Shown piece after piece: positions 15,251 through 42,415 of a DNA stretch of 51,968 nt. A program made the translations under genes and the position numbers. Source of the stretch: Candidatus Dadabacteria bacterium (GTDB lineage Bacteria; Desulfobacterota_D; UBA1144; Nemesobacterales; Nemesobacteraceae); assembly GCA_009837205.1 (NCBI GenBank), contig VXTZ01000008.1, positions 1 through 51,968 of the forward strand. The letters are read 5' to 3'. A model generated the notes under the pieces. That model made no database searches. It was not told where the DNA came from and saw nothing but the letters and a program-made list of their open reading frames with translations. Position 1 is the first letter of the stretch, and every line of letters begins with the position of its first letter.

Positions 15251-17617
15251 TCACCCTGATAACCGCTTCCCAGAGAAGGCAGGACGCCCATTCAAGTCGA
15301 ACTTCATAAGAAGCGGCGGCAGGAGAAGGAAATCGGCTATTAGGGCTAAAGCGATTACAAGCGCTGTGAGCTTGCCCATCGCTGAATTGAGTTCGAAATT
15401 GGAAAAACTCACCACGATAAAGCCTGCCACAAGCACAAGCGAGGTCGTAAGCAGTGCCTGACCCACGGTTCGGAAGGCAGTCAGTACCGCGTCAGAAGAG
15501 GTGGAACCGAGTTCGCGTCGGGTCCGCTGGTACCTGCTGAGGAAGTGAACAGTATCGTCGACCACGATACCCAGCGTCATGGCCGTTACCATCGAAAGGG
15601 ATACTCCCACTTGTCCGACTGTGAGACCCCATATGCCGAAGCCCAATGCCCCCGGAGTCAGGTTTGGGACCATGCTCGTGATTCCGAGTCGCCATGATCG
15701 CAGTGCGAAGATGAGGATGAAGGAAATTCCAATGAGGGCAAGTGTGGTTCCGACTAGCATGGAGATGATATTTCGGCGGCCGAGATTGGCGAACATCAAC
15801 GTGGTGCCGGCACTCACCTGACCGGAGATATTCGGCGCGTGGCCTGCGAGCCATTGCCGCGCGCGCTGATCAAGCGCGATCACTTCGTTTGATGAGAGCG
15901 TCTGCGTCCTCACTACCATCCGGGTAGCTGACTTGCTAACGTCGATCTGATTGTTGAGATCAAAACCATAGGGTAGAGAGATCTCGTAGAGAAGCAAATA
16001 CTGCGCGGCAAGCTCCCGGTTTGCGGGCAGCCGGTAATAGGCCGGATCGTCTCCGTTCATGCTCTTGTTTAGCCGTCGGAAGGTATCGGTGATGACGCCT
16101 ACATGTATCGTTTCAGGTTGCTCCTTGTACCACTCGGCAAACGCTTCGACGTCGGAGAGATACGCCGGGTCGCTGATCCCACCCGGGGAGTGCGATGGGA
16201 GCGAGTACTCCATAGCATATAAACCGGTGAGGTTGTTAACGATGAATTCAGAGTCTTTTCGGAATTCGATGCTCTCGTCAAAGTAGTGGAGGAAGACGTC
16301 GTTTAGCTCGTTCTGGGAAATCGATGCCACAAGCACTACCACGATCAGCACGGAACCCCAGAGCAACTGGCGGCTTCGGCGTATCACGAACTTGCCGAAC
16401 ATGACTATCAGGGAATTCTCTCGAGGCAGGGATGCGCGTACCCGAACCGGCAGCAGCGAGAGCAACGCCGGCAGAAAAGTTACGGAGAGTACGAACGCTG
16501 CACCTACCCCAAATGCAACGAAGGTACCCAGATGGCGGAAGGGAGGCGAATCGGAGAAGTTCAAGCTCAAAAAGCCGAGCGTGGTTGTCAGGCTCGACAG
16601 GAAGACCGGCTGAAGGTTCACCCGGATCGACTCGACAATCGCATCCCGCCTAGTCCTGCTGCCGCGATTCTCAGACGTGCCGGACACCGCATCATGCATG
16701 TAGTTGACAACGGCGGAATAAATGTGGACGCAGTTGGCAATAGCCACCGTCAGCACGACGACCGGGGAGACCGCCGAAGGTGATGTCATTGGAAGTCCTA
16801 CCCAGCCTCCGATGCCCACAGCGGTCATTACCGACATCGTCACGACGAGCATTATTGCGAACGTTCCAGAAAATCCCCGCGTCAGCAGCAGCAGCATGAA
16901 CGCCATTGCCAAGAAACTCACCGGGATAAGCGTCCTAAGGTCGTCCAGCGACACATCCATAAAGGCCTGGTTAAAAATCACCATTCCAGCCAATCGTACA
17001 TCAATGCCAGGGAAACGCTCCCGAAACTCATTCGCAAGTTTCCGCGAGTGCTCAGCAACCTCCGCACCTTCGCGCATCTGGTCCTCGCCCGGCAACTGCA
17101 ATGTGACGTTTACTCCCGAAACACCGCCGTCACGTGCCAGCAGGCGCCCCGCGAGAGCCGGTTCCGCCAAGGCGATTTCGCGAATCCGTGACCGTTCTTC
17201 AGCATTGCTGAAAGCACTCTCGTCCACAAGTTCACGCACCAATATCTCGTCGCCGTCGGCTTCGGTATGCTGAAAGTTGGTAATGGAATCGACACGGCTT
17301 GCGAATGGGGTCTGCCAAGCCCGTTCGGTGAGCCACTCTGTAGCTTTAAGTGCGAGAGCCGACGTGGCGTCCCGGTCCTCCGGCACGATGGCGAAAAAGA
17401 CGTTGTCGCTCTTGCCGTACATGTCCTCCATCTCCTGGTACTCCAGAAGCTGAGGATTGTTTTTGGAAAAGTAGACGCGGTGGTCGGTCGAAAATTCAAG
17501 CAACAACGTGCCGCTTGTTGCAATCCCGGTCAAGACAATGGCGGCGACTATGATCGGCCACCGGTGCATGATGGCCCAGTTACCCAGCTGCGACTCTATC
17601 TCTCTCAGCAATTTCAT
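15251..17617 (-). CDS. MMPL/RND-family transporter, paralogue 1
   Basis: A large inner-membrane RND-type pump (about 788 residues) with two homologous halves, each with an N-terminal helix, a periplasmic loop and a cluster of membrane segments. GIVVDDTVHFLSRY in the second half is a typical MMPL/SSD-like motif. It belongs to the hydrophobe/sterol-type RND subgroup rather than to drug efflux with MFP and TolC. It is clearly paralogous to the gene at 35097 (shared FRKDSEF/FRRSADF, ADW/AEWYKEQPE, ELAAQYLLLYE). The LolA-like gene lies 229 nt upstream, which suggests a lipid-handling unit. The ATG at 17617 and a TTG at 17626 are both possible starts. Substrate unknown; sterol or lipid export is inference from context. 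Confidence 0.9.
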   Translation of the reverse strand: MKLLREIESQLGNWAIMHRWPIIVAAIVLTGIATSGTLLLEFSTDHRVYFSKNNPQLLEYQEMEDMYGKSDNVFFAIVPEDRDATSALALKATEWLTERAWQTPFASRVDSITNFQHTEADGDEILVRELVDESAFSNAEERSRIREIALAEPALAGRLLARDGGVSGVNVTLQLPGEDQMREGAEVAEHSRKLANEFRERFPGIDVRLAGMVIFNQAFMDVSLDDLRTLIPVSFLAMAFMLLLLTRGFSGTFAIMLVVTMSVMTAVGIGGWVGLPMTSPSAVSPVVVLTVAIANCVHIYSAVVNYMHDAVSGTSENRGSRTRRDAIVESIRVNLQPVFLSSLTTTLGFLSLNFSDSPPFRHLGTFVAFGVGAAFVLSVTFLPALLSLLPVRVRASLPRENSLIVMFGKFVIRRSRQLLWGSVLIVVVLVASISQNELNDVFLHYFDESIEFRKDSEFIVNNLTGLYAMEYSLPSHSPGGISDPAYLSDVEAFAEWYKEQPETIHVGVITDTFRRLNKSMNGDDPAYYRLPANRELAAQYLLLYEISLPYGFDLNNQIDVSKSATRMVVRTQTLSSNEVIALDQRARQWLAGHAPNISGQVSAGTTLMFANLGRRNIISMLVGTTLALIGISFILIFALRSWRLGITSMVPNLTPGALGFGIWGLTVGQVGVSLSMVTAMTLGIVVDDTVHFLSRYQRTRRELGSTSSDAVLTAFRTVGQALLTTSLVLVAGFIVVSFSNFELNSAMGKLTALVIALALIADFLLLPPLLMKFDLNGRPAFSGKRLSG

Positions 17618-17846
17618 TATTGCCAAAACAGGGAATTTGACTTGCGCCCAGGACTAAGGGTCACGTCCCCTCTTTCTGGGTAATGGGATGTAGGAATGGT
17701 CGACGACATAGGTGTTCCACCGTTTTTTATGGGCCTGATGAATCCAACTTACGGAAACTCTCCGTTCGTTGCCTAGTGTGCTCGCCCAATTTCAGCTGCA
17801 GTCACTCCGGCGGACGGCAAACCGGACTGGGCAGTCAAGAAATTCT

Positions 17847-18668
17847 CTACCGTATCCGCTTTAGCGCTGTCTTGGTAAAGTCCTTGGCGTCGAGGTCGGT
17901 CCCGAACTTGTAGTCTGACCATAGCAGCACGGTACTCTTGCCCGTCAGAAGGTTTGTCATCGTTACAGTGCTGCTCCGCCAAAATCGATCAAGGTATTTT
18001 GCATAGCCCTCCACGACCATCGTCTTGAGGTGCTCATCCCTGCGGTCGAAGTAGTGGACCTGAATTGTTCGAAGTTCCTCGCGGTCGAGCCAAACCACCT
18101 GGCGTGAGTACCCGGAATCCTGGCTTTTCGGGATACGCTCCAGAACCAGGCACTTGAGATCACCGCAGGGCTCTTCGCGGATGAACCGGTGAGTAAATTT
18201 CCCGACCTCAACCGCTCCCATGTCCTCGTAGGAGAATTCGCTACCCATGAAAGAGCCGGATTGTTTCGAAGCGCTGATGCCTTTCACCCGCTTAAGGGCG
18301 GGAAGATAGAGCCACTGTTTGTCCGGGCCGGTCTTGTGGGCGTGGACGAGAAAGGCGGTTCCTTTGACATCCCGCGGGTGGTCAAATACAAACAAGGTTC
18401 GATCGCCGTCCTCCTGGGCTTCCATGACCTTGAGGCGGAGTGAGCGCTGGGTTTCTTTCCCCTGTTTGTTACGTAGCGTCATGGTCAGGCTTGCGGTAAA
18501 ATTACCGAAACCCTTCTGGCGCTCCCGGGATTCGGTCGCAATTCTGAGACCTGCCTCCTCAGCGGTACCGCTAAGGAGATCTGAATACGACTCAGCTGGC
18601 CAGAAACAAATTGCAAGAAAGCTCCCAAGTACCGCAAGTATTACGCGTGGGATTGAAAACCGAATCAT
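17847..18668 (-). CDS. LolA-like outer membrane lipoprotein-sorting protein
   Basis: A periplasmic protein of 273 residues with an N-terminal signal (hydrophobic stretch to about residue 28, SYSDLLSG). The body matches the LolA/LppX-like family: FGNFTASLTMTLRN, FDHPRDVKGTAFLVHAH, WLYLPALKRVKGIS and GSFMGSEFSYEDMG. Such proteins have a half-open beta barrel that shields lipids and often sit next to MMPL/RND pumps. AGGAGG lies 4 nt before the ATG. A shared promoter element (18700-18721) is 31 nt upstream. I read it as the periplasmic carrier of the RND pump at 15251. Confidence 0.87.
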   Translation of the reverse strand: MIRFSIPRVILAVLGSFLAICFWPAESYSDLLSGTAEEAGLRIATESRERQKGFGNFTASLTMTLRNKQGKETQRSLRLKVMEAQEDGDRTLFVFDHPRDVKGTAFLVHAHKTGPDKQWLYLPALKRVKGISASKQSGSFMGSEFSYEDMGAVEVGKFTHRFIREEPCGDLKCLVLERIPKSQDSGYSRQVVWLDREELRTIQVHYFDRRDEHLKTMVVEGYAKYLDRFWRSSTVTMTNLLTGKSTVLLWSDYKFGTDLDAKDFTKTALKRIR

Positions 18669-19041: not shown

Positions 19042-19054
19042 ACCCTGATCCGAC

Positions 19055-20401
19055 TCAGAAACTGTAGGCCAGATTGATCTTTACGTAGCTGTCGCGCCGC
19101 ACATAGTATATGAAGTCCTCTTCGTCGATATCCAGGAAAGCTGAGGTCTCAATATGCAGCAACCAGTTGTCCGAAGAAAGGCGGCGCTTGAACTCGCCTG
19201 CGACGACGCGACTGCTTTTGTTTAGGGAGCCCAAAACGCTGAGGACAAATTCGGTGCTCTGCGGATCGTTCAATCCGAGACGCGCGGCAATGAACACGTC
19301 GTTCTCGAATGCATTGGTTGCCCAGCGGCCACGCCCATCGTAAGCCCATTCGGCAAACAGGACTAGGTCAGAGTTCGAACCCAATATGGAATAGAGCGTG
19401 TACTCGCTACCCAGGATAAAAGCTATGTAGTCCTCTTCCTCTAAAGTATTGAGGTGTTGAATGTACCTGCTGTTCCTTGCGCCGGCGCGGTAGATTCCTT
19501 CCAGCTTGAGCAGCAGGGAACCCCTTGTAAGCTGGGCATCCACACCGAATTGGCGAATCTTCTCGTAATGCGGAGCCAGAACCAGTCCAGAGTCGAGAAA
19601 TATCGGCAAAAGGGTGGGCTCTCGGTTCGTACCGTTGAACAGGCTGAGACCAATCTCGAGCGGTCCTAATGAGCCGCTGTACCGGCTGGCAAGATCAATA
19701 TGCCACTTTTTCGCGCCGGATTCGTATGAAATCATGTCCTGATCTACAATGAACTCATACCGCTGGCGACCACGCGAACCCGGATAGATGCGCGCACGGT
19801 GCCATGTCATCGCGAACAATTCCAGTGCTCCCCAGTCACCCGACCAGGTGAAATGAGCCATTGGCTGACCCATCTTTATCTTTTCGTTCGGGTGTTCAAT
19901 AACATCGGTCTGATTGATAATATCCACCAGGGAACGCAATTCCACGACGCCCCAAAACACCCGATCGATGCCCAGACGCAATTCCCATTCGCCGTCGCCA
20001 ATATCGCCGTACATCAGCAGATAGGCCTCACGGAAATCACCATACGTGCGGTCCGGGTCCCCGGCATCGTACCGCAAAAAGGGAGTTACCGTTATGCTTG
20101 TGCCTTCGTCGTTCTCAACATAGAACGTTGTCTCAAGCGCAAGGCCGCCCGCATACGAACGCTGGTCAGGATACGCAGCATCTTGGGGATACAGCCAAGC
20201 CTCCGTCGAGAGGCGCCCGGAGATATCAACCTCGTCGATTAAGCCGGCCGGGTACGCTACGGTCGGAAGCACCGAAACAAGCATCCCCAGCACCACCGCT
20301 AAAATCGCTGGGACGATTGAAGCCGGAGCGCTCTTGCCGCTCTCACCGGGTGCGGTGAACGGATTTTTGAGAATCCGGTGCTGGGTCTTTTCAAACAACA
20401 T
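19055..20401 (-). CDS. Outer-membrane beta-barrel protein, porin-like
   Basis: A 448-residue protein with a long N-terminal leader (hydrophobic core about residues 28-50, ending near TVAYPAG) and a body of alternating amphipathic strands rich in Tyr, Trp and Gly. It ends YVKINLAYSF with a C-terminal Phe, as in barrels inserted by BAM. It resembles the DUF1302-like or large-porin proteins that accompany MMPL pumps and LolA-like proteins, but I cannot place it in a named family with certainty. The shared promoter element copy B lies about 70 nt upstream. It probably forms the outer-membrane part of a lipid or steroid route with the LolA-like and RND proteins. Confidence 0.75.
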   Translation of the reverse strand: MLFEKTQHRILKNPFTAPGESGKSAPASIVPAILAVVLGMLVSVLPTVAYPAGLIDEVDISGRLSTEAWLYPQDAAYPDQRSYAGGLALETTFYVENDEGTSITVTPFLRYDAGDPDRTYGDFREAYLLMYGDIGDGEWELRLGIDRVFWGVVELRSLVDIINQTDVIEHPNEKIKMGQPMAHFTWSGDWGALELFAMTWHRARIYPGSRGRQRYEFIVDQDMISYESGAKKWHIDLASRYSGSLGPLEIGLSLFNGTNREPTLLPIFLDSGLVLAPHYEKIRQFGVDAQLTRGSLLLKLEGIYRAGARNSRYIQHLNTLEEEDYIAFILGSEYTLYSILGSNSDLVLFAEWAYDGRGRWATNAFENDVFIAARLGLNDPQSTEFVLSVLGSLNKSSRVVAGEFKRRLSSDNWLLHIETSAFLDIDEEDFIYYVRRDSYVKINLAYSF

Positions 20402-20650: not shown

Positions 20651-21652
20651 ATGGCAGATGACTCCGATAACCCAGTTTCAAGTGCAGCTCAGCCGGATGA
20701 TATTTTGGAAAGGCTGTCGAAGTACCGCAGAAGCCAGGGGATGAGCAAGGAAGAGTACGCCAACACGGTAACGGCGTTTTATAACCTCATTACCGACTTT
20801 TGCGAGCGTGGATGGGGACAGTCGATTCACTTCGCAGTGATGGAGCCGGGGATGTCTTTCGAGGAATCCATTGTCAACCATGAGTATTTTCTGGGCGAAG
20901 CCATTGGATTGAGACCGGGCATGAAGGTGCTGGATGTCGGGTGCGGAGTGGGCGGACCCCAACGCTCCATCGCAAGAAAGTTCGGCGCTTCGATCGTGGG
21001 CCTCAATATCAACAAATATCAGCTCGGGAAGTGCTCCGTGTACAACAGCGAGGCTGGACTGGACCATCTCTGCAGCGTCCTGCACGGCGATTTCCTGAAT
21101 ATACCGGCGGAAGACGGAAGCTTTGACGCGGCTTACCATATCGAGGCCTTGTGTCATGCGCCGGATAAAGCCGCGGCCTATGCTGAGATATTCCGTGTAT
21201 TGCGGCCCGGCGCGACTTTCGTCGGCTACGACGTGTGCACGACCCCGCTTTACGACGGCGGAAATCCTAAGCACCGGGAACTCAAGGAAATAAACGAGTA
21301 CGTCTCCGCTCTTCCTGAAATCGCTTCATTCACGGAGGTAGACGACAGCCTGCGGGCAGCCGGTTTCGAACTCATCGAGGCGCGTGACCGCGCTCTTGAC
21401 GCCGACCCCAAGACGCCGTGGTATCAACCGCTGGAAGGGGGCAGCCTGAATCTGAGAAGTTTCTTGAGAACGGCCTTTGCCCGCAAAATCGCCTCGACGG
21501 TTCTGCCAGTTCTGGAAGGCGTGCGCGCCGTACCCAAGGGGTCATCCGAGGCGCGGAAAATTATCAATGTCGTGGCCGACAGCCTCGTGGCCGCAGGACG
21601 TCTGGGAATTGTTACGCCCATGTACTACCACAAGGCTCGCAAACCGGGCTGA
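20651..21652 (+). CDS. Sterol C-24 methyltransferase (SMT/ERG6-like), copy 1
   Basis: SMTs transfer a methyl group from SAM to C-24 (or C-28) of the sterol side chain. SAM motif I is VLDVGCGVGGP (about 93-103), followed by IVGLNINKYQ; the LDVGCGVGGP + GLNxNxYQ pair is specific to the ERG6/SMT family. The aromatic sterol-binding region is represented by ERGWGQSIHF (about 52-61), and EALCHAPDK matches the SMT motif EAxCHAPD. The C-terminal half has PWYQPL, as in eukaryotic SMTs. 333 residues is near the usual 340-380. GAGGG lies upstream of the ATG. It diverges from the barrel gene and converges on the sterol reductase. Only about half the residues seem shared with copy 2, so the two probably do different alkylation steps. 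Confidence 0.92.
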   Translation: MADDSDNPVSSAAQPDDILERLSKYRRSQGMSKEEYANTVTAFYNLITDFCERGWGQSIHFAVMEPGMSFEESIVNHEYFLGEAIGLRPGMKVLDVGCGVGGPQRSIARKFGASIVGLNINKYQLGKCSVYNSEAGLDHLCSVLHGDFLNIPAEDGSFDAAYHIEALCHAPDKAAAYAEIFRVLRPGATFVGYDVCTTPLYDGGNPKHRELKEINEYVSALPEIASFTEVDDSLRAAGFELIEARDRALDADPKTPWYQPLEGGSLNLRSFLRTAFARKIASTVLPVLEGVRAVPKGSSEARKIINVVADSLVAAGRLGIVTPMYYHKARKPG

Positions 21653-21737: not shown

Positions 21738-22883
21738 TCAATAAATGCCAGGAAGAATCCGGTATTTGACCCGTGCCTGATATTCCGCCCACTTTTCGGC
21801 ACCGTATTTCTCGGCACAATACACATCGTCAAAACGTTGACGAAAGGTAAAAAACGTTACGACGAAGACAAAGTAGGTCCACGCCCAAGGATTGGTAAAG
21901 TAGCCGAATGCCAGGGCAATTGAAAGACCAAGGAAACCTTCGCCCAAGTAGTTGAAGTGGCGAGCGGCACCCCAGAAGCCACTGCACAGGATCTTGCGGT
22001 CTCCAGCCTGGATGTACTCAGGTTCGAAGATCCCGAGAAATTTGCGGTCGGGCCATCGCTTAAATGTATATTTCTGCATGTTGGCGCCGCGCGAGATGCC
22101 CCACCCGAACAGGAACAGCGCAGTCGTTCCGATTAGCCAGAAATATGTCCATCCCGACGAAAATCCGGGAGACGGATAAGCGGCCATGCCCCACAACGGG
22201 AGGATGAACAGCCACCCGTAGATCACGAGGCCTCCCCAGAACATTTTGAAGCCGATGCCCTCATGTATCAGATCGTAGGTATATAGCTGGACGCGCTCAA
22301 AGATAAAGTAATCCAGTATGTAGTATGTGTAGAATGCCGCATACAGGAAAACGCCCGGATTATAGTTCTCGCCAAAGATTTCGTAGTTGTACGCAGCCCC
22401 GGACAAGGCGTTGAGTGCCAGCATCGTCCCACCGACGACATAGAAATACATCTTTATATCGAAGCGCTCGTTAAAGAACGATATCTCCTGCGCCCGCCCG
22501 TCCCAAAGCGCCAGAAGCGGGTTCTTTATCTTGCCTTCCGGCTGGCTGAAGACCGCTATGATCGCAAAAATTGCGGTGAAGACTGTTCCGCCGACCACGG
22601 CATAGATCGAGGACCGGTAGAACCACTCACGCGGCATCCCGGTGAGCTCGAAAGCCCACACGATCAGCGCAACTGCAAACACCACGATACCGTTTAGCCG
22701 GTAATTACGGGGTTTACCGGTCTGCGGATTAATAACGTAGCCGGGAACCCGCTTTCCGGGCAGTATAAGCTGCGCCAGGAAAAACACGGCGAAAATCACC
22801 AGCGGGGTGAAAAACCCCGCAATCGCTTCCGTACGGGAAAGCTCGAAAAGGTGGCCAATACCAAGCCATTCAATCATAACCAA
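21738..22883 (-). CDS. ERG24/ERG4-family sterol reductase
   Basis: An integral membrane, NADPH-dependent sterol double-bond reductase (381 residues, several hydrophobic helices). The family signature is LCSGFWGAARHFNYLGE (about residues 290-306), matching the SGWWGxxRHxNYxGD pattern, and the protein ends in VKYRILPGIY, the conserved ERG4/ERG24 tail. Family members reduce the delta-14, delta-7 or delta-24(28) bond. Beside an SMT, delta-24(28) reduction is attractive; beside a P450, delta-14 reduction after C-14 demethylation is equally plausible. AAGGAGG precedes the ATG. The family is secure, the bond position is not. Confidence 0.92.
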   Translation of the reverse strand: MVMIEWLGIGHLFELSRTEAIAGFFTPLVIFAVFFLAQLILPGKRVPGYVINPQTGKPRNYRLNGIVVFAVALIVWAFELTGMPREWFYRSSIYAVVGGTVFTAIFAIIAVFSQPEGKIKNPLLALWDGRAQEISFFNERFDIKMYFYVVGGTMLALNALSGAAYNYEIFGENYNPGVFLYAAFYTYYILDYFIFERVQLYTYDLIHEGIGFKMFWGGLVIYGWLFILPLWGMAAYPSPGFSSGWTYFWLIGTTALFLFGWGISRGANMQKYTFKRWPDRKFLGIFEPEYIQAGDRKILCSGFWGAARHFNYLGEGFLGLSIALAFGYFTNPWAWTYFVFVVTFFTFRQRFDDVYCAEKYGAEKWAEYQARVKYRILPGIY

Positions 22884-23183: not shown

Positions 23184-25202
23184 ATGAATGATCCTATTGA
23201 GAGCCAGCCACTGAGCTTGCTCGACGAGTTCATACTGATGCTCCTCGATGAGGAGAGTGGCTACTTTTACCAAATAGCCGCCCACAAAATGAACTGCGCT
23301 ATTATCGGTGCGGCACTTGCGGAACTCTCTCTGCTTTCCCGTATCGACACGGACGCCGAGTCTCTTCTCCTTCTGGACCCAACGGAAACGGGCAACCCAA
23401 GCTTGGACCTAATTCTTAAGGAAATCGTCGATGAGCCAGTTCAGCACAACGCCCAATTCTGGATTGAGAAGCTCATCCACCATGCGGAAACGATCACTGA
23501 TTTGACTTTAGATAATCTGCTTAATCTGGGAATTCTGGAACATCACCAGGGTGATTTCTGGACAGTGGCAGCTGGCAAACTATACGCGGATGCAAGCGGC
23601 GACGATGAAGATGCAAGTTTAAGTCAGTTCATCAGAACCAGAATCGGCAAAGACATCTTTTCAGACGACATTCCACATCCGCGAGATATTATCATCATCT
23701 GCCTGATCGAAACATGCGATATTTTTCCCCTCATGTTTAAACTCGACAAAAAGACGGAAGAACGGATCGAGCTTATCTGCAGAATGGACCTCATCGGCCG
23801 TTCAATAGCGGACGCGGTCGCAGAAAACATCAATAATCCGCTGCTTACAGCTTCTCATCATGGCAAAAAAATCCCGCGCGTCTCACTTCATCGGATAATG
23901 TTCAACCCATATACTCGTACTGGAAACCTTCCAGCACTTTTTGCAGATTTGACAAAGCAGTACGGTCCAGTCTTTGAGGTCTCCCTTCCTTTCTCAAAGC
24001 CAAATATTTTTATTTCCGGACCAGAAGTAAACTACTGGGTACGGCGACACGGACGGAAGTACCTGACATCCAAGAACCTCTTTGGCGAATTTGAGAAAGT
24101 GTATGGGGCGGTAGGCATATTACCTGCCCTGGATGGCGCAGATCATTTCCGGTACCGGAAAACCATGACTCCAGCATACTCCCGCGGGAGACTGGAAGAG
24201 CAGCTGGATCTGGCCTACAGCAAGGCTCGGGAATTTATGGCAGATTGGAAAGTGGGCGAAAGCTATCCTGCAAGGGATCTGTGCCGAAAAATGATTAACG
24301 CTCAGACGTCACCTTTAATGATGAACATTGATACGCAGGATATCATGGATGATATAATTGCCTACAAGGAGCGGGCGCTCAGCACCCATCTCTTAAACAT
24401 TCTGCCAAAATTCATGTTGAAAACACCGGGAATGAAACGCAAGGCCAAGGCAATAGGCACTTTGATGGAGCGGGTGCAAAATGTCCATACAGCGGCCCAA
24501 CGGGCCGGTTGTCCGCGAAACTTTGTAGATGATCTGCTAAGCCTCAATGCGAACTACCCGCTATTGATGCCCGAATCGAATCTGAGTTTCGCTCTATCAG
24601 CAGTGGTGCTTGCCAGCATGTACCTGGGTGACGGCTTTAACTTCGCCCTTTATGCCATGGCGTCACACCCTGAGCTTTACGAAAAAATTAGAAGTGAGGC
24701 CGACGCACTGTTTTCAAATGGTGATCCAACTGGCAAAGACTTAACTCCTGCCAATATGGAGATCACCGATCGCTTCATCAATGAATGCCTTCGTGTGTAC
24801 CCGATTGTTCCAATGTCCATGCGTGGCGTTGTGAATACGTTCACGATTGATGGCTACGAAATACCGCAGGGGGCCAGAATAAACATTGCACAAACCGCCC
24901 CGCACTATATGGAAGATTGCTTTCCGGATCCCTTTTCATTTGACATCGACCGCTACCTGCCGCCCCGCAATGAGCATAGAAACCCCGGATACGCCCCATA
25001 CGGACTGGGCCCGCACACGTGCCTCGGCGCCCGATGGATGACACTTCATATGGCTGTTAACCTGCTGATCATATCGCATTACTTTACTCTTCGGGTACAC
25101 CCCGAAAACTATAAACTTGGAATCACCGCGTTTCCATCAATGAAGCCGGACAACAAGCTTAAATTTCATATCGCCGAGCAGAAGCACGAACTGCCCACCT
25201 GA
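23184..25202 (+). CDS. GPP34 (GOLPH3-like) domain fused to cytochrome P450
   Basis: A 672-residue two-domain protein. Residues about 10-215 (SLLDEFILMLLDEESG, GAALAELSLLSRID, LLLLDPTETG) match the GPP34/GOLPH3 fold, which in eukaryotes binds PI4P at Golgi membranes and in bacteria has no settled role. Residues about 225-665 are a P450: ExxR is Glu534-Arg537 (ECLR) and the heme loop is YGLGPHTCLG with Cys613. The I-helix (about 468-492) reads LASMYLGDGFNFAL, so the usual acid/alcohol pair (AGxDT) is not present. Other parts (FRYRKTMTPAYS) are normal. AAGGAGG lies 9 nt before the ATG. A sterol substrate, such as a C-14 methyl or side-chain carbon, is inferred from neighbours. No ferredoxin is adjacent. 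Confidence 0.88.
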   Translation: MNDPIESQPLSLLDEFILMLLDEESGYFYQIAAHKMNCAIIGAALAELSLLSRIDTDAESLLLLDPTETGNPSLDLILKEIVDEPVQHNAQFWIEKLIHHAETITDLTLDNLLNLGILEHHQGDFWTVAAGKLYADASGDDEDASLSQFIRTRIGKDIFSDDIPHPRDIIIICLIETCDIFPLMFKLDKKTEERIELICRMDLIGRSIADAVAENINNPLLTASHHGKKIPRVSLHRIMFNPYTRTGNLPALFADLTKQYGPVFEVSLPFSKPNIFISGPEVNYWVRRHGRKYLTSKNLFGEFEKVYGAVGILPALDGADHFRYRKTMTPAYSRGRLEEQLDLAYSKAREFMADWKVGESYPARDLCRKMINAQTSPLMMNIDTQDIMDDIIAYKERALSTHLLNILPKFMLKTPGMKRKAKAIGTLMERVQNVHTAAQRAGCPRNFVDDLLSLNANYPLLMPESNLSFALSAVVLASMYLGDGFNFALYAMASHPELYEKIRSEADALFSNGDPTGKDLTPANMEITDRFINECLRVYPIVPMSMRGVVNTFTIDGYEIPQGARINIAQTAPHYMEDCFPDPFSFDIDRYLPPRNEHRNPGYAPYGLGPHTCLGARWMTLHMAVNLLIISHYFTLRVHPENYKLGITAFPSMKPDNKLKFHIAEQKHELPT

Positions 25203-25292
25203 TGTGCCATAATCCCTGAATACGTTGACGCAGCGGGGGTCGAATTTCAGCTTTCTAGGGCTTCCTCCTAATGTCTGTTCACCCTTGTTTTA

Positions 25293-25317
25293 CACCCGGC
25301 TGACCGGGTGCTATAAT
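25293..25317 (+). promoter_or_regulatory. Hairpin next to a TATAAT box between P450 and FAD genes
   Basis: A perfect 7-bp inverted repeat (CACCCGG, loop CTGA, CCGGGTG; 25293-25310) is followed at once by CTATAAT (TATAAT at 25312-25317). The hairpin could end the P450 transcript or act as an operator over a promoter for the next gene. There is no U-run, and the candidate TTGTTT at 25285 is 21 nt from the TATAAT, so the promoter is weak on paper. Confidence 0.35.
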
Positions 25318-25377
25318 GGGCAAGCACATTAAGAGGCCATGGTATCGGTTATGAATGAAACGGAGGACACTGGAAAA

Positions 25378-26733
25378 ATGAGAAAGGTTGCAATTATCGG
25401 TGGTGGAGTATCCGGGCTGGGGGTGGCTTGGGCCCTGGACCGACACCCTGATCTGTTCGAGTTCCGAATCTTTGAAGCCCAGTCTCAGCTTGGCGGCAAT
25501 GCCATAACAGCTGACATGCCTCAAGAAGATGGGACCTCGATCCCGTTCGATATTTCCGTCACCGCGTGCATTCCATCGGCATACCACCATATGGTGCTGT
25601 TCCTGGAGCAGCACGGCATTGATCTGTTAGACACAAAATTCAACTACAGCGTTAAGTACCGTGGCGAAATCTATGCACACGATTTCGACTCAGACATCAG
25701 GAGCCAGCTGCAACCGGAAATTGCCAAGTTCCAGAAACTCCTGAAGCGTCTCAAATGGTTCGGTCGACTTAACCACTCCAGATCCCGATTGCTCAATGCT
25801 CTCAATCCATTCAACTACATCAGCATGGGTGCGGTTCTTAACTGGGGCAGGTTCTCCGGAGACTTCAGGTACAAGGTTCTGAAGCCGATGTTCGTCAATT
25901 TTCTGATGGCAACAAACGTGTTCGACATGCCCGCGTCCCTGTTTGCCCGGTATCTGGAGTTCTTTGATATAGAAACCTCAACACCAATGCAAACATGGGA
26001 GATGGGCACACGGCGCATATACGAGGAAATGTCAGCCGGATTTCGGGACAAGATATACCTGAACAGGCCCGTGAAGAAAGTGTATCGGCGTGCATCCGGT
26101 GTGGTCATTGAAGATGAAAATGGAACCACGGAGACATTTGACGATGTGGTCTTTGCGTGCAACGCGAACCAGACATTGATGATTCTGGACAATCCGACCT
26201 TACTGGAGAGTTTTCTTCTTTCTTCGATTCGTTACGAGAGCGAATTGCACAACCATACGATTGTCCATTCGGATGCCTCAGTTCTCCCGGACAACGCTGT
26301 CAAGCCCCTCGAAACCCGGAGCAACCACATTGAACAGTACGGTGTGAGACCCGATAACTATGAAATTACCTACATCATGCACAACCAACAACCCTGGGCA
26401 AATAAATCGGACAAGCCATGCCTGGTGACCTACAACCCGATCAGTCGTATCAACGAAGAAAAAATCGTAAAGAAATGGTGGTTTCAGCATATCGTACACG
26501 ATGTGTTTCACGTAGCTTTTCTGGTTAATCTGTTTGGTTTCGTTCAGGGCAGGAAAAGAACCTGGCACTGTGGTGCTCATACTCTGATCAACAGTCAAGA
26601 GACATGTTTTGTTTCCGGCCTCGTTACGGCAAGACAACTTGGAGCAGACTATCCGTTTCAGGATTCCGAAGCGAGGAAGTGGTTTAACTTCTACGGACGT
26701 ATGATGTACGGATGGCGCCTCAGAAAGGCGTAA
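25378..26733 (+). CDS. FAD-dependent amine-oxidase-like oxidoreductase
   Basis: A flavoprotein of about 451 residues. VAIIGGGVSGLGVAWAL is the N-terminal FAD-binding Rossmann loop, followed by EAQSQLGGNA, the second FAD-contact motif of the amine oxidase/desaturase family. DDVVFACNANQTL and the C-terminal GAHTLINSQETCFVSG complete the pattern of NAD(P)/FAD proteins often seen near lipid-modifying enzymes. I favour the ATG at 25378, which starts right at the Rossmann strand and has GGAGG 11 nt upstream; starts at 25339 or 25351 are possible. It follows the P450 by 175 nt in the same direction. Substrate unknown; a steroid dehydrogenase or isomerase role is inference. Confidence 0.85.
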   Translation: MRKVAIIGGGVSGLGVAWALDRHPDLFEFRIFEAQSQLGGNAITADMPQEDGTSIPFDISVTACIPSAYHHMVLFLEQHGIDLLDTKFNYSVKYRGEIYAHDFDSDIRSQLQPEIAKFQKLLKRLKWFGRLNHSRSRLLNALNPFNYISMGAVLNWGRFSGDFRYKVLKPMFVNFLMATNVFDMPASLFARYLEFFDIETSTPMQTWEMGTRRIYEEMSAGFRDKIYLNRPVKKVYRRASGVVIEDENGTTETFDDVVFACNANQTLMILDNPTLLESFLLSSIRYESELHNHTIVHSDASVLPDNAVKPLETRSNHIEQYGVRPDNYEITYIMHNQQPWANKSDKPCLVTYNPISRINEEKIVKKWWFQHIVHDVFHVAFLVNLFGFVQGRKRTWHCGAHTLINSQETCFVSGLVTARQLGADYPFQDSEARKWFNFYGRMMYGWRLRKA

Positions 26734-27825: not shown

Positions 27826-28983
27826 ATGGACGACGGCAAAATCCGAATTTTAGTTGTCGATGATGAAATAGATTTAGAACAGCTTATGCTGCAGAGAATG
27901 CGGCGTGAAGTTCGCCGCGGTCGTTACGAATTCGAATTTGCACACAACGGTGTGGAGGCTCTCGAACGTCTACGCAACGACGACGGGTTCGATATTGTGC
28001 TGTCTGATATCAACATGCCCGTTATGGACGGGTTGACATTGTTGGCACAGATACCGGACGTAGACCCTGATATTCGTGCCGTAATGGTCTCCGCATACGG
28101 CGATATGGAGAATATACGGACTGCCATGAACCGCGGGGCATTCGACTTCGTTACCAAGCCGATAGACTTCACGGACCTGAAGACTACAATTGAACGTACG
28201 ATTGAAAACCTTGCTATGTGGCGTAAAGCACTGAGTGCGCGCGACAAACTCGTAACTCTCCAGAACGAGCTTGATGTGGCAAGGACAATGCAGCAGGACA
28301 TTCTTCCGAAATCCTTTCCGACTTCTGAAACATTTGATCTGTACGCAAGCATGGTTCCGGCTCTTTCCGTAGGCGGCGACTTTTTCGATGTTTATGAATT
28401 TAGTGATGGCCGGGTTGGAGTTGCAATAGCTGATGTGTCGGGCAAAGGAGTGCCCGCGGCAATGTTCATGATGGCCAGTCGTACATTGTTGAAGGCTTGC
28501 GCGGCAATTTCCACCTCTCCAGCCGCCGTGCTGGAACAGGTAAATACGATGTTGGCGGAGGACAACGATGCCATGACATTCGTAACCCTGTTATATGGCA
28601 TTTACGATCCTGGAACGAAAGAATTCGTCTACGCAAACGGCGGACATAATCCGCCAGTCATTGTCAAACCGAATCTGACAACTGAACTGTTGGAGTCAAC
28701 GGGAGGAGTTGCTCTAGGCGTGATGCCGAATTTCAAATATGAGGAAAATACAGTCACCATCGAGTCGGGTTCCATGATCGTGTTCTACACTGACGGAGTA
28801 GTAGAAGCTGAAAAAAAAGATAAGGAATTATTCGAAATGGACAGGTTTTGTGAAATTTTCCAAAGCGGCACTTTCAAGAACTCCGAGGAAGTTACGAATG
28901 AGGTATTCGAGACGGTCAAAGAGTTCGCTGGTGAAAATCCCCAATCTGACGATATAACCTGTCTAGTTCTGCGGACAACATAA
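27826..28983 (+). CDS. Response regulator with PP2C (RsbU/SpoIIE-type) phosphatase
   Basis: 385 residues. The receiver domain (about 6-125) has the acidic pocket DDE, the phospho-acceptor Asp61 in LSDINMPVMDG, the switch Ser in VMVSAYGD and the conserved Lys in FVTKPID. A coiled-coil linker (about 130-165) leads to a SpoIIE-type PP2C phosphatase (about 175-385) with GGDFFDVY and ADVSGKGVPAAMFM metal-binding segments. Such proteins dephosphorylate a STAS anti-sigma antagonist when their receiver is phosphorylated. The STAS protein at 32891 and the kinase at 28983 complete a partner-switching set, and the histidine kinase at 30671 is the likely input. The stop overlaps the next start by 1 nt. 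Confidence 0.93.
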   Translation: MDDGKIRILVVDDEIDLEQLMLQRMRREVRRGRYEFEFAHNGVEALERLRNDDGFDIVLSDINMPVMDGLTLLAQIPDVDPDIRAVMVSAYGDMENIRTAMNRGAFDFVTKPIDFTDLKTTIERTIENLAMWRKALSARDKLVTLQNELDVARTMQQDILPKSFPTSETFDLYASMVPALSVGGDFFDVYEFSDGRVGVAIADVSGKGVPAAMFMMASRTLLKACAAISTSPAAVLEQVNTMLAEDNDAMTFVTLLYGIYDPGTKEFVYANGGHNPPVIVKPNLTTELLESTGGVALGVMPNFKYEENTVTIESGSMIVFYTDGVVEAEKKDKELFEMDRFCEIFQSGTFKNSEEVTNEVFETVKEFAGENPQSDDITCLVLRTT

Positions 28984-29417: not shown

Positions 29418-29427
29418 CAAAGATAAA

Positions 29428-33465: not shown

Positions 33466-34503
33466 CTAATGGGGTTTGCGAGCCAGGAAACAGTACAGCG
33501 GCGTGAAGATACCGGTTTTACCACCATTGACATAGGCATCAGCGGTCTGGTCCAAGGATCGGAAGACTTCTGCGGAACCCTTCGGAAACAACCCAACCAT
33601 TTCGGCCAGCTTTGATCCTGCGACCAACACTCTGCGGCCGTGGGGAAGCCTGAACAAGGCGCTACCCAACATCCCGTGTCGACTCTCTATGGGTTGATAC
33701 CATGGTGTGGATGCCTCCCCCTCCGAGGCGCCCAGGTCCTTCCCCTCGATGATGTGGAACCCTGCCGCTTCAAGCGCTTGATTCACTTCCCCGAACGTGG
33801 CGATGTCCTTTAGTGCAATGCCGCGCTTGAGATCGCGCTTGAGGTCCCAGTGCCGGCTGTCATTCGGATCGAACTTGTCCGTCAGACACATTTCATGCCC
33901 CCAGAACAGGGCTCCGGGTTTCAGTACGCGGAATATCTCTTCGAACGCACCTTGCTTGTCCGGCGCATGGCACGTTGACTCGATGGCATAACCCCGGTCG
34001 AAAGTTGCGTCTTCAATGACGCTCATATCCATGAAGCTGCACGCTAGGTAATCGACCATGTGGTCGAGCCCCGCCTCGGCATTCAATTTTTTCGTCTTTT
34101 CCAACTGGATTTTGTTGATGTTGATCCCGACAACCCGGACACCGGCCTCACGAACGACACGGCGCATCGGGCCGCCGATTCCACAACCAACATCAACCAC
34201 CGTCATGCCCTGCTGCAAATCCAGCTTGTCGATCATCAACCGCTGATAGCGGATTTTGGAGTCCTCCAGGGTCTCATTCGGCGCGAGAGGTGCGAAGTGC
34301 AGGGACTCACCCCAACTCCATACCATGAGCTCACTGTAAAGATCGTAGTAGTCTTTGACCAGTTGGGCGTGGTCGTAATCGCCCGAGTCAACGGCTTCGG
34401 GCGTCGCTCGCTCCATCCAACTCTCGAAGTCTTGCACGCGACGGGCGATGTTGGAACCCCGGTACGCATCCCTGAGTTTTTTCGGTAGCTTGCCTATATC
34501 CAT
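33466..34503 (-). CDS. Sterol C-24 methyltransferase (SMT/ERG6-like), copy 2
   Basis: 345 residues. SAM motif I is VVDVGCGIGGP (about 102-112), followed by VVGININKIQ. The aromatic region I is WSWGESLHFAPL (about 62-73), closer to the eukaryotic YEYGWG..FHF than copy 1. ESTCHAPDK matches the SMT hallmark, and PWYQPI is near the C-terminus. Region I residues shape the pocket and can decide whether C-24 or C-28 is alkylated, so the difference between the copies (ERGWGQS versus WSWGESL) suggests sequential methylations. It lies 12 kb from copy 1, on the opposite strand, next to the signalling block and divergent from the second RND pump. Confidence 0.93.
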   Translation of the reverse strand: MDIGKLPKKLRDAYRGSNIARRVQDFESWMERATPEAVDSGDYDHAQLVKDYYDLYSELMVWSWGESLHFAPLAPNETLEDSKIRYQRLMIDKLDLQQGMTVVDVGCGIGGPMRRVVREAGVRVVGININKIQLEKTKKLNAEAGLDHMVDYLACSFMDMSVIEDATFDRGYAIESTCHAPDKQGAFEEIFRVLKPGALFWGHEMCLTDKFDPNDSRHWDLKRDLKRGIALKDIATFGEVNQALEAAGFHIIEGKDLGASEGEASTPWYQPIESRHGMLGSALFRLPHGRRVLVAGSKLAEMVGLFPKGSAEVFRSLDQTADAYVNGGKTGIFTPLYCFLARKPH

Positions 34504-35096: not shown

Positions 35097-37427
35097 ATGA
35101 ACCTGGAATCTTGCATCTCAATGATCGTCACCCGCCGCTGGCTGACCATTGTGCTCTCTTTGCTTGTTATGCTGATCCTTGCTGCGGGAGCCACGCGCTT
35201 GATTGTGGTGGACGTAGATTTCCGCAACCACTTCAGTAAATCCGACCCACACCTCCTTGCACTCGAACAGCTTGAAGAGACATATGCGCTGTCCGATGTT
35301 GTATTGGTTGCCGTAGCGCCGCATAACGGCACCATTTTCACACGGGAAACGCTTGTTGCCATTGAAGAGATGACTAAGCAGCTTTGGCGCACCCCGTACG
35401 CCACCCGCGTCGACTCTATTTCAAACTATACGCACAGCGAGGGATTCGAAGATGAGCTGGTTGTTGAGCAGCTTATCGACGAAGCCAGTTCCCTGAGCGA
35501 TACCGATATACAACGAATCATGGATATCGCGCTCGGCACTGAGGAAGTTGCCGGGCGATTCGTCTCCCGTGACGGACGAGTTGCAGGCCTGGTTGTCAGT
35601 ATTATTCTTCCTGACGACAATAGGGAATTGGCCAAGCGAGAGGTCACCGACTACCTGTATGAAACTGTTGCCGACGCCGGGGAGAAATATACATCCACCG
35701 ACTACCACCTTTTAGGTGGACTCATCCTCAATCGTGTCATAGGTGACGCGATTGACGATGAAACTGCCATCCTTGGGCCCATTGCTCTTGGAACCATGCT
35801 GCTTGTCGCCTTGATTCTGATACGTTCGATATGGGGGACACTTGCCATTGTGCTGATGATTACTGCCGTCATCCCATCCGCGCTGGGCTTTGCCGGGTGG
35901 ACAGGCTTAAAGCTGTTTGGTGAAAGCGGTGCCGCAATGTTTGTACTGATGGCTGTGACCGTCGCTCACTCCGTGCACATTATTGAGGCAATGGCCGTGG
36001 GCTTACGCCAGGGCATGACGAGAACAGAGGCGGCAATCTATGCCGTGCGAGTGGACGTGTGGCCTATTTTCCTTACCTCGTTCACAACCGCAATCGGATT
36101 TCTGAGCCTGAATTTCGTAGATATGCCGCCGTTTAAGGTCATGGGCAACATCGTGGCGTTCGGTTCCGTGTGCGCTTTTGTCTTTTCGGTGACCCTGTTG
36201 CCCGCATTCCTGTCACTATTACCTATTCGTCCCCGGAAGATACGCGAAAACAAACAGGATTTTTTCGATCGTCTCGGCCGTTTTGTCATCTCCTATCGTA
36301 CGATCCTTCTGTGCTCCTTTGGCATTATGACTGTCTTTCTGGTTGCCGGCATTTCCAAGATTGAACTTAGGGAGAACTGGCTTGAGGTTCTTGATGAGAG
36401 TTACGAGTTCCGGCGATCCGCGGATTTTCTGAGCGAGAATTTCCCTGGAGTGGAAACCTATGAGTACTCTCTGGATTCCGGCCGTGAAGGCGCCGTAACG
36501 GACATAGAATACCTAAAACAGGTCGAGTCGTTTGCGGACTGGTACCGGGAGCAACCGGAATTTGTCCATATCTTCTCAATTGCCGACATCATGAAGCGTC
36601 TGAACAAGAACCTGCATGGTGATAACCCGGATTACTACGTGCTTCCTGACGATCCCGAACTTGCTGCGCAGTATCTTTTGCTTTACGAATTCTCTCTTCC
36701 GGTAGGCCGTGACCTTAACAACCTGATCGACCATGACCGGAGGGCAACACGCGTAACGGTCTCAGTGAAAAGTATGTCCAGCAAGGAAAAGATTGATCTT
36801 GACGATCGTTCACGTGAGTGGCTGCGCCAAAATGCCCCCGGCATGGAAACCGGCGCTACGGGAATTTCGATTGTGGGGTCTCATTCGATTCAGAGGAATA
36901 TTGAAAATATGCTGCAGGGCACTTTCGTGGCGATGGCCATCGTCTCCCTGCTGCTGTTCGCCATATTCAGAAGTATACGCTTGGGACTGATCAGTGTGAT
37001 CCCCAATTTCATTCCGGCCGCCATAGCCATGGGACTGTGGGGGTATCTGGTGGGAGAGGTAGGAGTTCCGGCGGCGGTCGTCACCGCTATAGCATTCGGC
37101 ATCATCGTGGACGACACGATCCACTTCATGACAAAATACACGGATAGCAGAAAAGCGGGGAAACTGCCTTCGGAGTCCGTTCAGATTGCCTTTCGCCTAG
37201 TGGGCAGGGCACTGTTTACAACTACCGTAGTGTTTGGTCTGGGCTTTATGGTGTTCGGAGCATCCGGGGTGGTTGGAAACCAAGTGCTTGGTCTTTTAGT
37301 GGGAATAACGGTAATTATCGCTCTACTGGCAGATTTTTTCTTTCTTCCACCACTTCTGATGCTACTTGACGAGACCAAGGAAACCACCGAGGAGATCAGG
37401 GAGCGATTAAGGGGCTCAACCGCATAG
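35097..37427 (+). CDS. MMPL/RND-family transporter, paralogue 2
   Basis: 776 residues, clear paralogue of the protein at 15251 along its whole length (TPYATRVDSISNYTHSEG versus TPFASRVDSITNFQHTEA; both keep an LNK.-.GD(D/N)P stretch and a GIIVDDTIHF or GIVVDDTVHF motif). Membrane helices: one near residue 20, five at about 225-370, one near 400 and the last group at about 610-755. It belongs to the same RND class as hydrophobe exporters. No clear Shine-Dalgarno precedes the ATG at 35097; MIVTRRW eight codons later is an alternative. It is divergent from SMT copy 2 and convergent with the Rieske gene. Confidence 0.9.
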   Translation: MNLESCISMIVTRRWLTIVLSLLVMLILAAGATRLIVVDVDFRNHFSKSDPHLLALEQLEETYALSDVVLVAVAPHNGTIFTRETLVAIEEMTKQLWRTPYATRVDSISNYTHSEGFEDELVVEQLIDEASSLSDTDIQRIMDIALGTEEVAGRFVSRDGRVAGLVVSIILPDDNRELAKREVTDYLYETVADAGEKYTSTDYHLLGGLILNRVIGDAIDDETAILGPIALGTMLLVALILIRSIWGTLAIVLMITAVIPSALGFAGWTGLKLFGESGAAMFVLMAVTVAHSVHIIEAMAVGLRQGMTRTEAAIYAVRVDVWPIFLTSFTTAIGFLSLNFVDMPPFKVMGNIVAFGSVCAFVFSVTLLPAFLSLLPIRPRKIRENKQDFFDRLGRFVISYRTILLCSFGIMTVFLVAGISKIELRENWLEVLDESYEFRRSADFLSENFPGVETYEYSLDSGREGAVTDIEYLKQVESFADWYREQPEFVHIFSIADIMKRLNKNLHGDNPDYYVLPDDPELAAQYLLLYEFSLPVGRDLNNLIDHDRRATRVTVSVKSMSSKEKIDLDDRSREWLRQNAPGMETGATGISIVGSHSIQRNIENMLQGTFVAMAIVSLLLFAIFRSIRLGLISVIPNFIPAAIAMGLWGYLVGEVGVPAAVVTAIAFGIIVDDTIHFMTKYTDSRKAGKLPSESVQIAFRLVGRALFTTTVVFGLGFMVFGASGVVGNQVLGLLVGITVIIALLADFFFLPPLLMLLDETKETTEEIRERLRGSTA

Positions 37428-37503: not shown

Positions 37504-38547
37504 TTACGGATTATAATACTGACCATCGGGATAGAACTGCCTGCAGTAGCGCCGATACTTCCCGATATCGCCGTCAACACTGCAAAGCCTCGGAAGTGAC
37601 CGATGTTTCAGATTTTTCCAGATGACTACATCCTGCATGACGTCATGCTCCTGGGATGAAATGAGGACCTTGTTCATGAGGCGGGTCCTGAGTCCCACGG
37701 GAAGGAGCCGCAGCCCGTGGCCCACTCCCTTCGGATTACGAAGTTGTCGCACTTGGCTCACCAGCGTCAGTTCAATAAATTTGCCATCAGTCGGTGTTGA
37801 AAGCACCCACAGGCGGGTGTCCATGTTGATCGAATGTTCGTGAACCTCGACAAGTGAATAGCCAAGCCCGTGTATGCTGGCGACCGCAGAAACGTCGTAC
37901 TCGAAAAGCTTGATGCCGGCAACCGTAAGGTTACGTTTGAAGTTAAAGGAGTTCCTGAGGAAGGAGCCGTCAATCGATACCGAACCGACAATGTTCACGC
38001 TGTTGTAGTGGTGCACATAGTTAAGGTGTGCGACATCCACGGAGTTCTCGGTAGTTTCCTGGGGATGTCCCGGGAAACGGAGGTGGCAGAATTCCATCCC
38101 GCCCCAGTCGGTATCCGTTGTGGAAATTTCGGGCAGGTGCCATTGAGGTTCTCGACCGCCGCTGCCCCACCAACCAAAAATGAGACCCTCTATCTCTCGT
38201 GTCTCGAACACCTTCAGCTTGGCGGTTTTTGGCGGAGGAGCAAAGGGTGTCGCCACGCATTGACCGCTCACATCAAACTCGAAACCGTGAAAAGGACACA
38301 CTAGGGAACCGTTGCGCACCTTCCCCCCTGCCTCAGGACCAAGATCGGCTCCAAGATGCGGACAGACCGCCTCAGCAACACAAACGTTCCCTTCCCCGTT
38401 GGACCAGACAACAATCTGTTCTCCAAGCCAGGTTCTCTTCAGGAGTCCCTTTTTTTCAATCATCTTGCGGCTGGCGACGAAATACCAGCCTTCCGGAAAT
38501 GGGTAAAGCAAGGATTCATCCTTGCGCACGTTTGAGTTTGGATTCAT
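37504..38547 (-). CDS. Rieske non-heme iron oxygenase, steroid type
   Basis: 347 residues. The 2Fe-2S Rieske site is Cys62-x-His64 (CPHLGADLG) and Cys84-x2-His87 (CPFHGFEFD). The mononuclear iron ligands are visible in NSVDVAHLNYVHHY (Asp171, His174, His179). N-terminal YPFPEGWYFVA resembles the DAF-36/Neverland cholesterol 7-desaturase and KshA groups, and also SdmA, the bacterial sterol C-4 demethylase oxygenase. With an ERG26/SdmB-like SDR at 42385, C-4 demethylation is the best guess, but 7-desaturation is possible. GGAG lies 10 nt before the ATG. No dedicated reductase is adjacent. Confidence 0.88.
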   Translation of the reverse strand: MNPNSNVRKDESLLYPFPEGWYFVASRKMIEKKGLLKRTWLGEQIVVWSNGEGNVCVAEAVCPHLGADLGPEAGGKVRNGSLVCPFHGFEFDVSGQCVATPFAPPPKTAKLKVFETREIEGLIFGWWGSGGREPQWHLPEISTTDTDWGGMEFCHLRFPGHPQETTENSVDVAHLNYVHHYNSVNIVGSVSIDGSFLRNSFNFKRNLTVAGIKLFEYDVSAVASIHGLGYSLVEVHEHSINMDTRLWVLSTPTDGKFIELTLVSQVRQLRNPKGVGHGLRLLPVGLRTRLMNKVLISSQEHDVMQDVVIWKNLKHRSLPRLCSVDGDIGKYRRYCRQFYPDGQYYNP

Positions 38548-41711: not shown

Positions 41712-41783
41712 ATGACCGCAACGGGTCACGCTCCCGAAATGAAACGCAGATTGAGTACGGCCGGACGAAGGATGCACAGATGA
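41712..41783 (+). CDS. Possible 23-codon leader ORF
   Basis: A short frame (MTATGHAPEMKRRLSTAGRR...) starts 9 nt after AAGGA and ends in a TGA that overlaps the ATG of the sterol-desaturase gene (ATGA). This is the layout of translational coupling. The gene downstream has its own GAAGGA, so the leader may be chance. Confidence 0.25.
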   Translation: MTATGHAPEMKRRLSTAGRRMHR

Positions 41784-42415
41784 CTTATATAATAAGCGCA
41801 ATCCTAGTGATGAGCGGGTTTATGGGCGGGGCCCAGCTGGCCTACTCTAAGCTCTATGACTGGAGAATAGCCGAGGGAGACGGCAGTCGTCTCAAGGACC
41901 GTTACAGGAACACCGCAATGAACGGAACAATCGCCGTGGCGCTTTACCTTGTCGCGATCGTGATGTTCGGGGAACTCCTGATAGACTGGGATGCAGCTTC
42001 CACCTGGTACAAGCCTATCCTTGTCCTGCTGCTCTACGATTTCGGGTACTACTGGCTGCATCGTCTGCTGCATGTGCGGAAAGTCATGCAGAAAGTGCAC
42101 TGGGTTCATCACATGAACCTGCATCCTACCGCCGTTGATTCCCTGTACCTGCACCCGGTGGAAATGATCGCGGGGCTGGCTTTCCTGCTAATCTCGATAG
42201 TGATAGTGGGCCCCTTGGGTATCGGAGCGTTTCTGGCGGTCCTTTTGCTCCATACCATCATCAACATACTGCATCATACGAACCTGCAGCTACCTTATCG
42301 TCTGGCATGGCTCGCGAACCACTGGGCCGCAAGTCACGATGCGCATCATAGCCAGGGAGGAAATTACGGAGTGATTACGCCCGTATGGGACTGGATATTC
42401 GGAACGCGCTCATAA
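41780..42415 (+). CDS. Sterol desaturase / fatty acid hydroxylase family protein
   Basis: 211 residues, membrane-bound di-iron enzyme. The histidine clusters are His94-x3-His98 (HRLLH), His107-x2-His110-His111 (HWVHH) and His186-x2-His189-His190 (HDAHH), the ERG3/ERG25 pattern. Hydrophobic segments lie near residues 1-20, 50-68, 80-95 and 130-165. It could be a C-5 desaturase, a C-4 methyl oxidase or a hydroxylase. GAAGGA lies 7 nt before the ATG. Its end overlaps the 3beta-HSD-like gene by 31 nt, so the two are expressed together, as expected if they act on the same ring-A sites. Confidence 0.9.
   Translation: MTYIISAILVMSGFMGGAQLAYSKLYDWRIAEGDGSRLKDRYRNTAMNGTIAVALYLVAIVMFGELLIDWDAASTWYKPILVLLLYDFGYYWLHRLLHVRKVMQKVHWVHHMNLHPTAVDSLYLHPVEMIAGLAFLLISIVIVGPLGIGAFLAVLLLHTIINILHHTNLQLPYRLAWLANHWAASHDAHHSQGGNYGVITPVWDWIFGTRS

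Follow-up and report, generated by a model that had tools for sequence, protein, structure and literature searches.

A GPP34-cytochrome P450 fusion with an altered I-helix turn in a probable sterol-remodelling module of Candidatus Dadabacteria

In a Candidatus Dadabacteria genome, we identified a gene that joins a GPP34 (GOLPH3/Vps74-like) domain to a cytochrome P450. The domain architecture is real and conserved, is undescribed in the literature searched and, judging from the genes around it, lies within a probable sterol-remodelling module. Among papers with open licences, none turned up that treats GPP34 together with cytochrome P450 and sterol; an earlier description elsewhere is possible. 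With moderate confidence, we propose that the fusion is a P450 that docks on the membrane and belongs to a module for remodelling imported sterols, in which it would act with a FAD oxidoreductase, a Rieske oxygenase, a C14-type reductase, and sterol methyltransferases (SMTs). The fusion and its parts are located as follows in the window, that is, in the whole stretch of 51,968 nucleotides that was analyzed:

23184..25202, + strand: GPP34-P450 fusion ORF, 672 aa, one uninterrupted frame with full-length homologs
23217..23825, + strand: GPP34 (GOLPH3/Vps74-like) domain, residues 12-214 (Pfam, profile search, AlphaFold2 model)
23826..23918, + strand: linker, residues 215-245, with a conserved K(K/P/E)IP and then a GN(L/I)PA motif (alignment of fusions)
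23919..25121, + strand: P450 domain, residues 246-646 (Pfam)
24609..24632, + strand: I-helix turn LASMYLGD, residues 476-483 (family alignment, profile-profile alignment)
24783..24794, + strand: ExxR motif ECLR, residues 534-537 (translation, family alignment)
24990..25037, + strand: haem-binding loop YAPYGLGPHTCLGARW, residues 603-618, with Cys613 (translation, family alignment)

The fusion had been proposed in an original prediction made from the DNA letters, and it was confirmed: one ORF spans exactly 23184-25202, and both Pfam scores are far above the gathering cut-offs (29.1 bits for GPP34, PF05719; 22.8 bits for P450, PF00067). PF05719 matches residues 12-214 with 85.5 bits (E=6.8e-24, model positions 1-200 of 201) and PF00067 matches residues 246-646 with 140.9 bits (E=6.7e-41). 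The genome of the window (1.69 Mb, 97% complete) has a sole GPP34 domain and a sole P450 domain, those of the fusion.

The same architecture was then found elsewhere, as the original prediction had asked. Full-length fusions are encoded by nine Dadabacteria genomes of the window's genus, that of the window included, with contig-end-cut pieces in two more, and by 26 of the 395 Acidimicrobiia genomes sampled. Named relatives are Candidatus Dadabacteria MAGs with 87-89% identity and Acidimicrobiia MAGs with 54-56%; in the Acidimicrobiia sample, most fusions are 55-60% identical and one is 43-44% identical. Because the fusion is present in so many independent genomes, an assembly artefact is ruled out. 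Two Acidimicrobiia loci carry tandem double copies, other Dadabacteria encode GPP34 and P450 as separate genes without the fusion, and no relative of the fusion was found in the viral contigs searched. One Acidimicrobiia fusion has an in-frame TAG (L009:8080-8082) in an otherwise open frame, either a single-genome nonsense mutation or a sequencing error.

In a tree of GPP34 domains, every fused domain belongs to a single clade that contains no stand-alone domain, with a support of 100/100. The P450 tree places the Dadabacteria copies as the sister group of one Acidimicrobiia subgroup (100/100) and, with a midpoint root, within the Acidimicrobiia. These topologies suit one fusion event and a transfer between Dadabacteria and Acidimicrobiia. 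The dN/dS ratios between the window and locus L002 are 0.18 for GPP34 and 0.23 for the P450; therefore, both domains are maintained by purifying selection.

The P450 domain has what places a protein in the superfamily, namely a score above the cut-off, an ExxR motif, and a haem-Cys loop, and the expectation that the latter two would be intact held in 44/44 sequences of the family. The acid-Thr pair found in the I-helix of typical monooxygenases, a common but not universal trait, is missing. We aligned the profile of the fused P450s to that of stand-alone, canonical Dadabacteria P450s (AGQETT, AGHETT), and the AGx(D/E)T turn fell, ungapped through the I-helix, on Leu476-Ala477-Ser478-Met479-Tyr480. 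The Thr position is Tyr480 in all 44 fusions, and the acid position 479 is Met, Val, or Ile (Met here). Ser478, Tyr480, and Gly482 are invariant in 44/44 fusions, and position 483 is Asp in 43/44. A phmmer alignment to CYP51 contains a one-residue gap that would move the I-helix register by one, and the Thr is absent either way. The original prediction of an atypical I-helix was therefore right about the missing Thr, which is a family-wide change and is accompanied by loss of the acid, and wrong about the register: LGDGFNF, which it had read as the AGxDT turn, is located five residues downstream of the true turn, and the profile-profile alignment rules it out. Because the Thr is missing, oxygen activation in the fused P450 may differ from the usual, although the motif does not prove it.

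How much the altered turn matters depends on the chemistry. We give nearly, but not quite, an even chance to an ordinary O2-dependent sterol monooxygenase in which the absent Thr would be of little consequence, protons being delivered by Tyr480, Asp483, water, or the substrate. The ExxR motif and the haem loop are intact and conserved, some working monooxygenases, such as P450eryF, lack the Thr, and a reductase that feeds oxygenases is likely present, given the Rieske oxygenase of the genome. However, the loss of both acid and Thr together with an invariant Tyr in 44/44 fusions exceeds one tolerated substitution, and the canonical motif is kept by the stand-alone Dadabacteria P450s and by two actinobacterial P450s.

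By profile, the nearest solved P450s are taxadiene 5alpha-hydroxylase (E=1e-28) and CYP51, the sterol 14alpha-demethylase of Methylococcus capsulatus (PDB 6mi0, E=6e-27). This result is compatible with a terpenoid or sterol substrate but is no proof of one; a P450 of sterol-type ancestry may today act on something else. Like CYP51 in bacterial steroid clusters, the fusion adjoins a C14-reductase-type gene. We do not accept it as a CYP51 because it has LASMYL in place of the GxHT(S/T) I-helix motif. It also differs from CYP51 in bearing an N-terminal GPP34 domain and in belonging to a genome without the cyclase.

The GPP34 assignment was submitted to a test set beforehand, in which a structure prediction unlike GPP34 for residues 1-215 would have spoken against it; structure prediction and profile search agreed on a GOLPH3/Vps74-like domain. 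The five best PDB matches of a profile built from fused and stand-alone GPP34 domains are all Vps74/GOLPH3 structures (E=5e-13 to 1e-11), whereas phmmer with a single GPP34 domain had no match in the PDB. Compared with the PDB, the AlphaFold2 model of residues 1-225 (pLDDT 71, pTM 0.75) gave a single match at E<1e-3, human GOLPH3 (3kn1, TM 0.64), followed by Vps74. The whole fusion, modelled from a 12-sequence alignment, reached a pLDDT of 38. Residues 12-214 thus share both fold and sequence family (PF05719) with human GOLPH3 and yeast Vps74, from which they differ in being bacterial, in being linked to an enzyme, and in the lipid pocket.

In eukaryotes, the GOLPH3-like domain binds the Golgi membrane. 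The Trp and Arg of the Vps74 segment FW...ALRG, which we take to be PI4P-binding pocket residues of the eukaryotic proteins, are the pocket residues that could be placed, and in the profile alignment they fall on Ile31 and Ile41; all fusions with a residue at position 41 carry Ile, Val, or Thr there. Since both residues are replaced, lipid binding of the eukaryotic, PI4P-type kind, implied when the domain was first noted, is not supported. Any lipid binding by this GPP34 would therefore be of another kind, and membrane docking is suggested by the fold and not by a conserved site. It is somewhat unlikely, in our view, that the domain is instead a protein-docking or regulatory module and not a membrane binder. 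The absence of the eukaryotic pocket residues would agree with such a role, as would the stand-alone GPP34 genes of other Dadabacteria (at L022:1498-2503, L026:1498-2549, L027:1498-2550, and L025:1095-2100), which directly precede a small gene that by eye resembles an anti-sigma-factor antagonist (111 aa, STAS-type by sequence reading). Against it, a tether would suit a domain linked to an enzyme whose substrates are expected to be membrane lipids, and R153, R194, D202, and G205 of the domain are invariant across the family.

The surrounding genes bear on the reading that we favor, a membrane-docked P450 acting on sterols. The original prediction had linked the fusion to membrane sterols, and the sterol-type genes next to it bear out this context:

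15251..17626, - strand: MMPL/RND transporter with a sterol-sensing-domain match (domain match)
17847..18668, - strand: LolA-like periplasmic carrier (domain match)
from 19055, - strand: probable outer-membrane barrel (weak DUF1302 match)
20651..21652, + strand: sterol methyltransferase-like protein 1, Methyltransf_11 + Sterol_MT_C (Pfam)
21738..22883, - strand: ERG4/ERG24-type sterol reductase (Pfam; best solved relative Delta14-sterol reductase 4quv)
25339..26733, + strand: FAD oxidoreductase, Amino_oxidase (Pfam; best solved relative LkcE)
33466..34503, - strand: sterol methyltransferase-like protein 2, SMT2 (domain match; 63% identical to the SMT after the fusion in locus L096)
35097..37427, + strand: second MMPL transporter, adjoining the Rieske gene (domain match)
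37504..38547, - strand: Rieske oxygenase, Rieske + KshA_C (domain match; family conserved beside Acidimicrobiia fusions)
41780..42415, + strand: fatty acid hydroxylase / sterol desaturase superfamily protein, a looser member of the neighborhood

The MMPL transporter, the LolA-like carrier, and the probable barrel are consecutive (15251-20401) and could form an envelope lipid-transport set reminiscent of the HpnN or BstABC systems. Ahead of the FAD gene, positions 25289-25317 hold a promoter-like site (11/12 matches and an extended TG), which might give this gene a transcript of its own, apart from that of the fusion. Not all of the neighborhood fits a sterol module. The region from 26.7 to 32.9 kb contains mostly signalling genes with no relation to lipids, and the SMT2, MMPL, and Rieske genes beyond it are 8-13 kb from the fusion, a separation that counts against the sterol-module explanation.

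Comparison with other genomes singled out two partners. The FAD protein is present in 22 of the 26 Acidimicrobiia genomes with a fusion, a count that takes in genomes with the FAD gene on a different contig, and in 1 of the 369 without (395 genomes; p=5e-31, which overstates independence because the genomes are related). In Dadabacteria, it is present in exactly the nine genomes with a full-length fusion (9/9), and the full-length protein is 72-77% identical between the two groups. Among 28 Acidimicrobiia loci, the FAD family is found within 4.3 kb of the fusion in 18 and the Rieske family within 5.4 kb in 23, and this neighborhood recurs in several unrelated flanks. That the association holds across several flanks and two bacterial groups speaks for a functional link between the fusion and these partners.

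Another mechanism would be that of an O2-independent, peroxide-using or rearranging P450 that works in the manner of CYP74/CYP8A1; its substrate would be an oxygenated sterol delivered by a partner such as the Rieske oxygenase. CYP74 enzymes use hydroperoxides, require neither O2 nor electron donors, and have an I-helix groove unlike that of monooxygenases (PMC10813956). The corresponding turn of the fusion is invariantly altered, and the haem Cys is retained as in these enzymes. However, the likeness is one of the altered I-helix alone: the residues differ, no sequence closeness to the fusion was seen, loss of the acid and Thr does not by itself prove a chemistry, and the hydroperoxide-forming partner is hypothetical. 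We consider this mechanism unlikely.

The partners also leave room for a different substrate. The P450 might act on a non-sterol lipid (an isoprenoid, a fatty acyl chain, or a secondary metabolite), the nearby sterol genes belonging to a separate pathway. The strictly linked partners in most Acidimicrobiia loci are FAD and Rieske proteins alone, whose families ('FAD amine oxidase' in the case of the former) serve non-sterol pathways too; LkcE, the best solved relative of the FAD protein, is an amine oxidase of the lankacidin pathway; and an SMT is adjacent to the fusion in just 1 of the 28 Acidimicrobiia loci. These points count against a sterol module. Yet Sterol_MT_C proteins are encoded in 30/31 fusion-bearing genomes and in 0/14 controls, the latter providing no background for fusion-less Acidimicrobiia, and in locus L096 the trio is accompanied by an SMT and a sterol-sensing MMPL (in a row: fusion, SMT, sterol-sensing MMPL, FAD, Rieske). 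In the window, moreover, the fusion adjoins an ERG24-type reductase and an SMT. Altogether, a non-sterol substrate seems to us unlikely. A P450 domain that has lost all catalysis and serves as a sterol-binding protein, as the lost acid/Thr pair might suggest, is very improbable given the haem Cys and ExxR kept in 44/44 sequences and the P450 dN/dS of about 0.23.

Returning to the sterol-remodelling module, the source of the sterol has to be considered. Neither the SHC/OSC cyclase family (SQHop_cyclase_N, PF13249) nor the squalene synthase family (SQS_PSY, PF00494) was found in the genome of the window, in 12 congeners, or in 8 further members of the order, and de novo sterol synthesis in this Dadabacteria genus is thus not supported. 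Three fusion-bearing Acidimicrobiia genomes have cyclase matches, and in the one examined (L042) the motif is DLDDTA, that of squalene-hopene cyclases; a self-made hopanoid is nevertheless ruled out as the common substrate because the Dadabacteria have no cyclase. We infer a sterol substrate from the neighbors of the fusion, the SMTs of the fusion-bearing genomes, and the missing cyclase. If the substrate is a sterol, it would be imported in Dadabacteria, as these lack both cyclase and squalene synthase.

Because the fusion is set among sterol-handling genes in bacteria without de novo sterols, it probably remodels sterols from the surroundings. In the pathway that we propose, a sterol would be taken up from host or food, and MMPL/LolA-type proteins would shuttle it between membranes. 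The N-terminal GPP34 domain would dock the enzyme, as a peripheral-membrane P450, on the inner membrane, where the P450 domain would oxidize or rearrange the membrane-embedded sterol. The adjoining FAD oxidoreductase, the Rieske oxygenase, the C14-type reductase, and the SMTs would belong to the same pathway, in which the sterol of the P450 would be modified by the FAD and Rieske enzymes as well. Membrane docking, import, and the order of the steps are inferred from gene content and domain folds.

The bacteria of the window are probably marine sponge dwellers, to judge from MAG names and from papers on sponge Dadabacteria, which have been reported in sponges (PMC12648040 and PMC8163846). The steroid clusters described so far in sponge microbiomes are of the ERG24-CYP51-ERG7 type (PMC9531527), and SMTs of sponge symbionts are known to be active (PMC10070321); Dadabacteria are not named in the main texts of these two papers. 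The locus resembles both kinds of cluster in its ERG24-type reductase, SMTs, and oxygenases, and in coming from probable sponge bacteria. It differs in that GPP34-P450 replaces CYP51 and that the genome lacks ERG7/OSC and the squalene synthase family. The makers of the unusual sponge sterols are an open question that bears on the oldest animal biomarkers (PMC10070321). The clusters published so far suggest bacteria with de novo sterol synthesis, whereas the locus points to an alternative route, in which bacteria without cyclase or squalene synthase carry enzymes that would modify imported sterols. It also contributes a P450 architecture that includes a GPP34 domain and in which the oxygen-activation turn is altered throughout the family. 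One could also imagine, as a speculation that we would not expect to hold, that P450s docked by a GOLPH3-like domain, with an invariant I-helix Tyr and no acid/Thr pair, form a sterol-acting class and the signature of a module transferred between Dadabacteria and Acidimicrobiia that alters host sterols and adds to the unusual sterols of sponges.

Several smaller features were also observed. Two more Sterol_MT_C proteins are encoded elsewhere in the genome of the window (G000:C27:43746-43940 and G000:C11:1038-1220), for a total of four. The window also encodes a DUF1295 protein (44730-45626), possibly another sterol reductase, since DUF1295 proteins are related to steroid 5-alpha-reductases. 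A partner-switching-like set is found at 27826-32884, with a response regulator and SpoIIE phosphatase, a HATPase_c_2 protein (28983-29417), a periplasmic binding protein, and a sensor kinase, and its order is kept in five related Dadabacteria loci. Finally, in one relative, a transposase-like ORF (L005:3734-4981, IS110 type by eye) is located between a 448-aa gene and the SMT gene.
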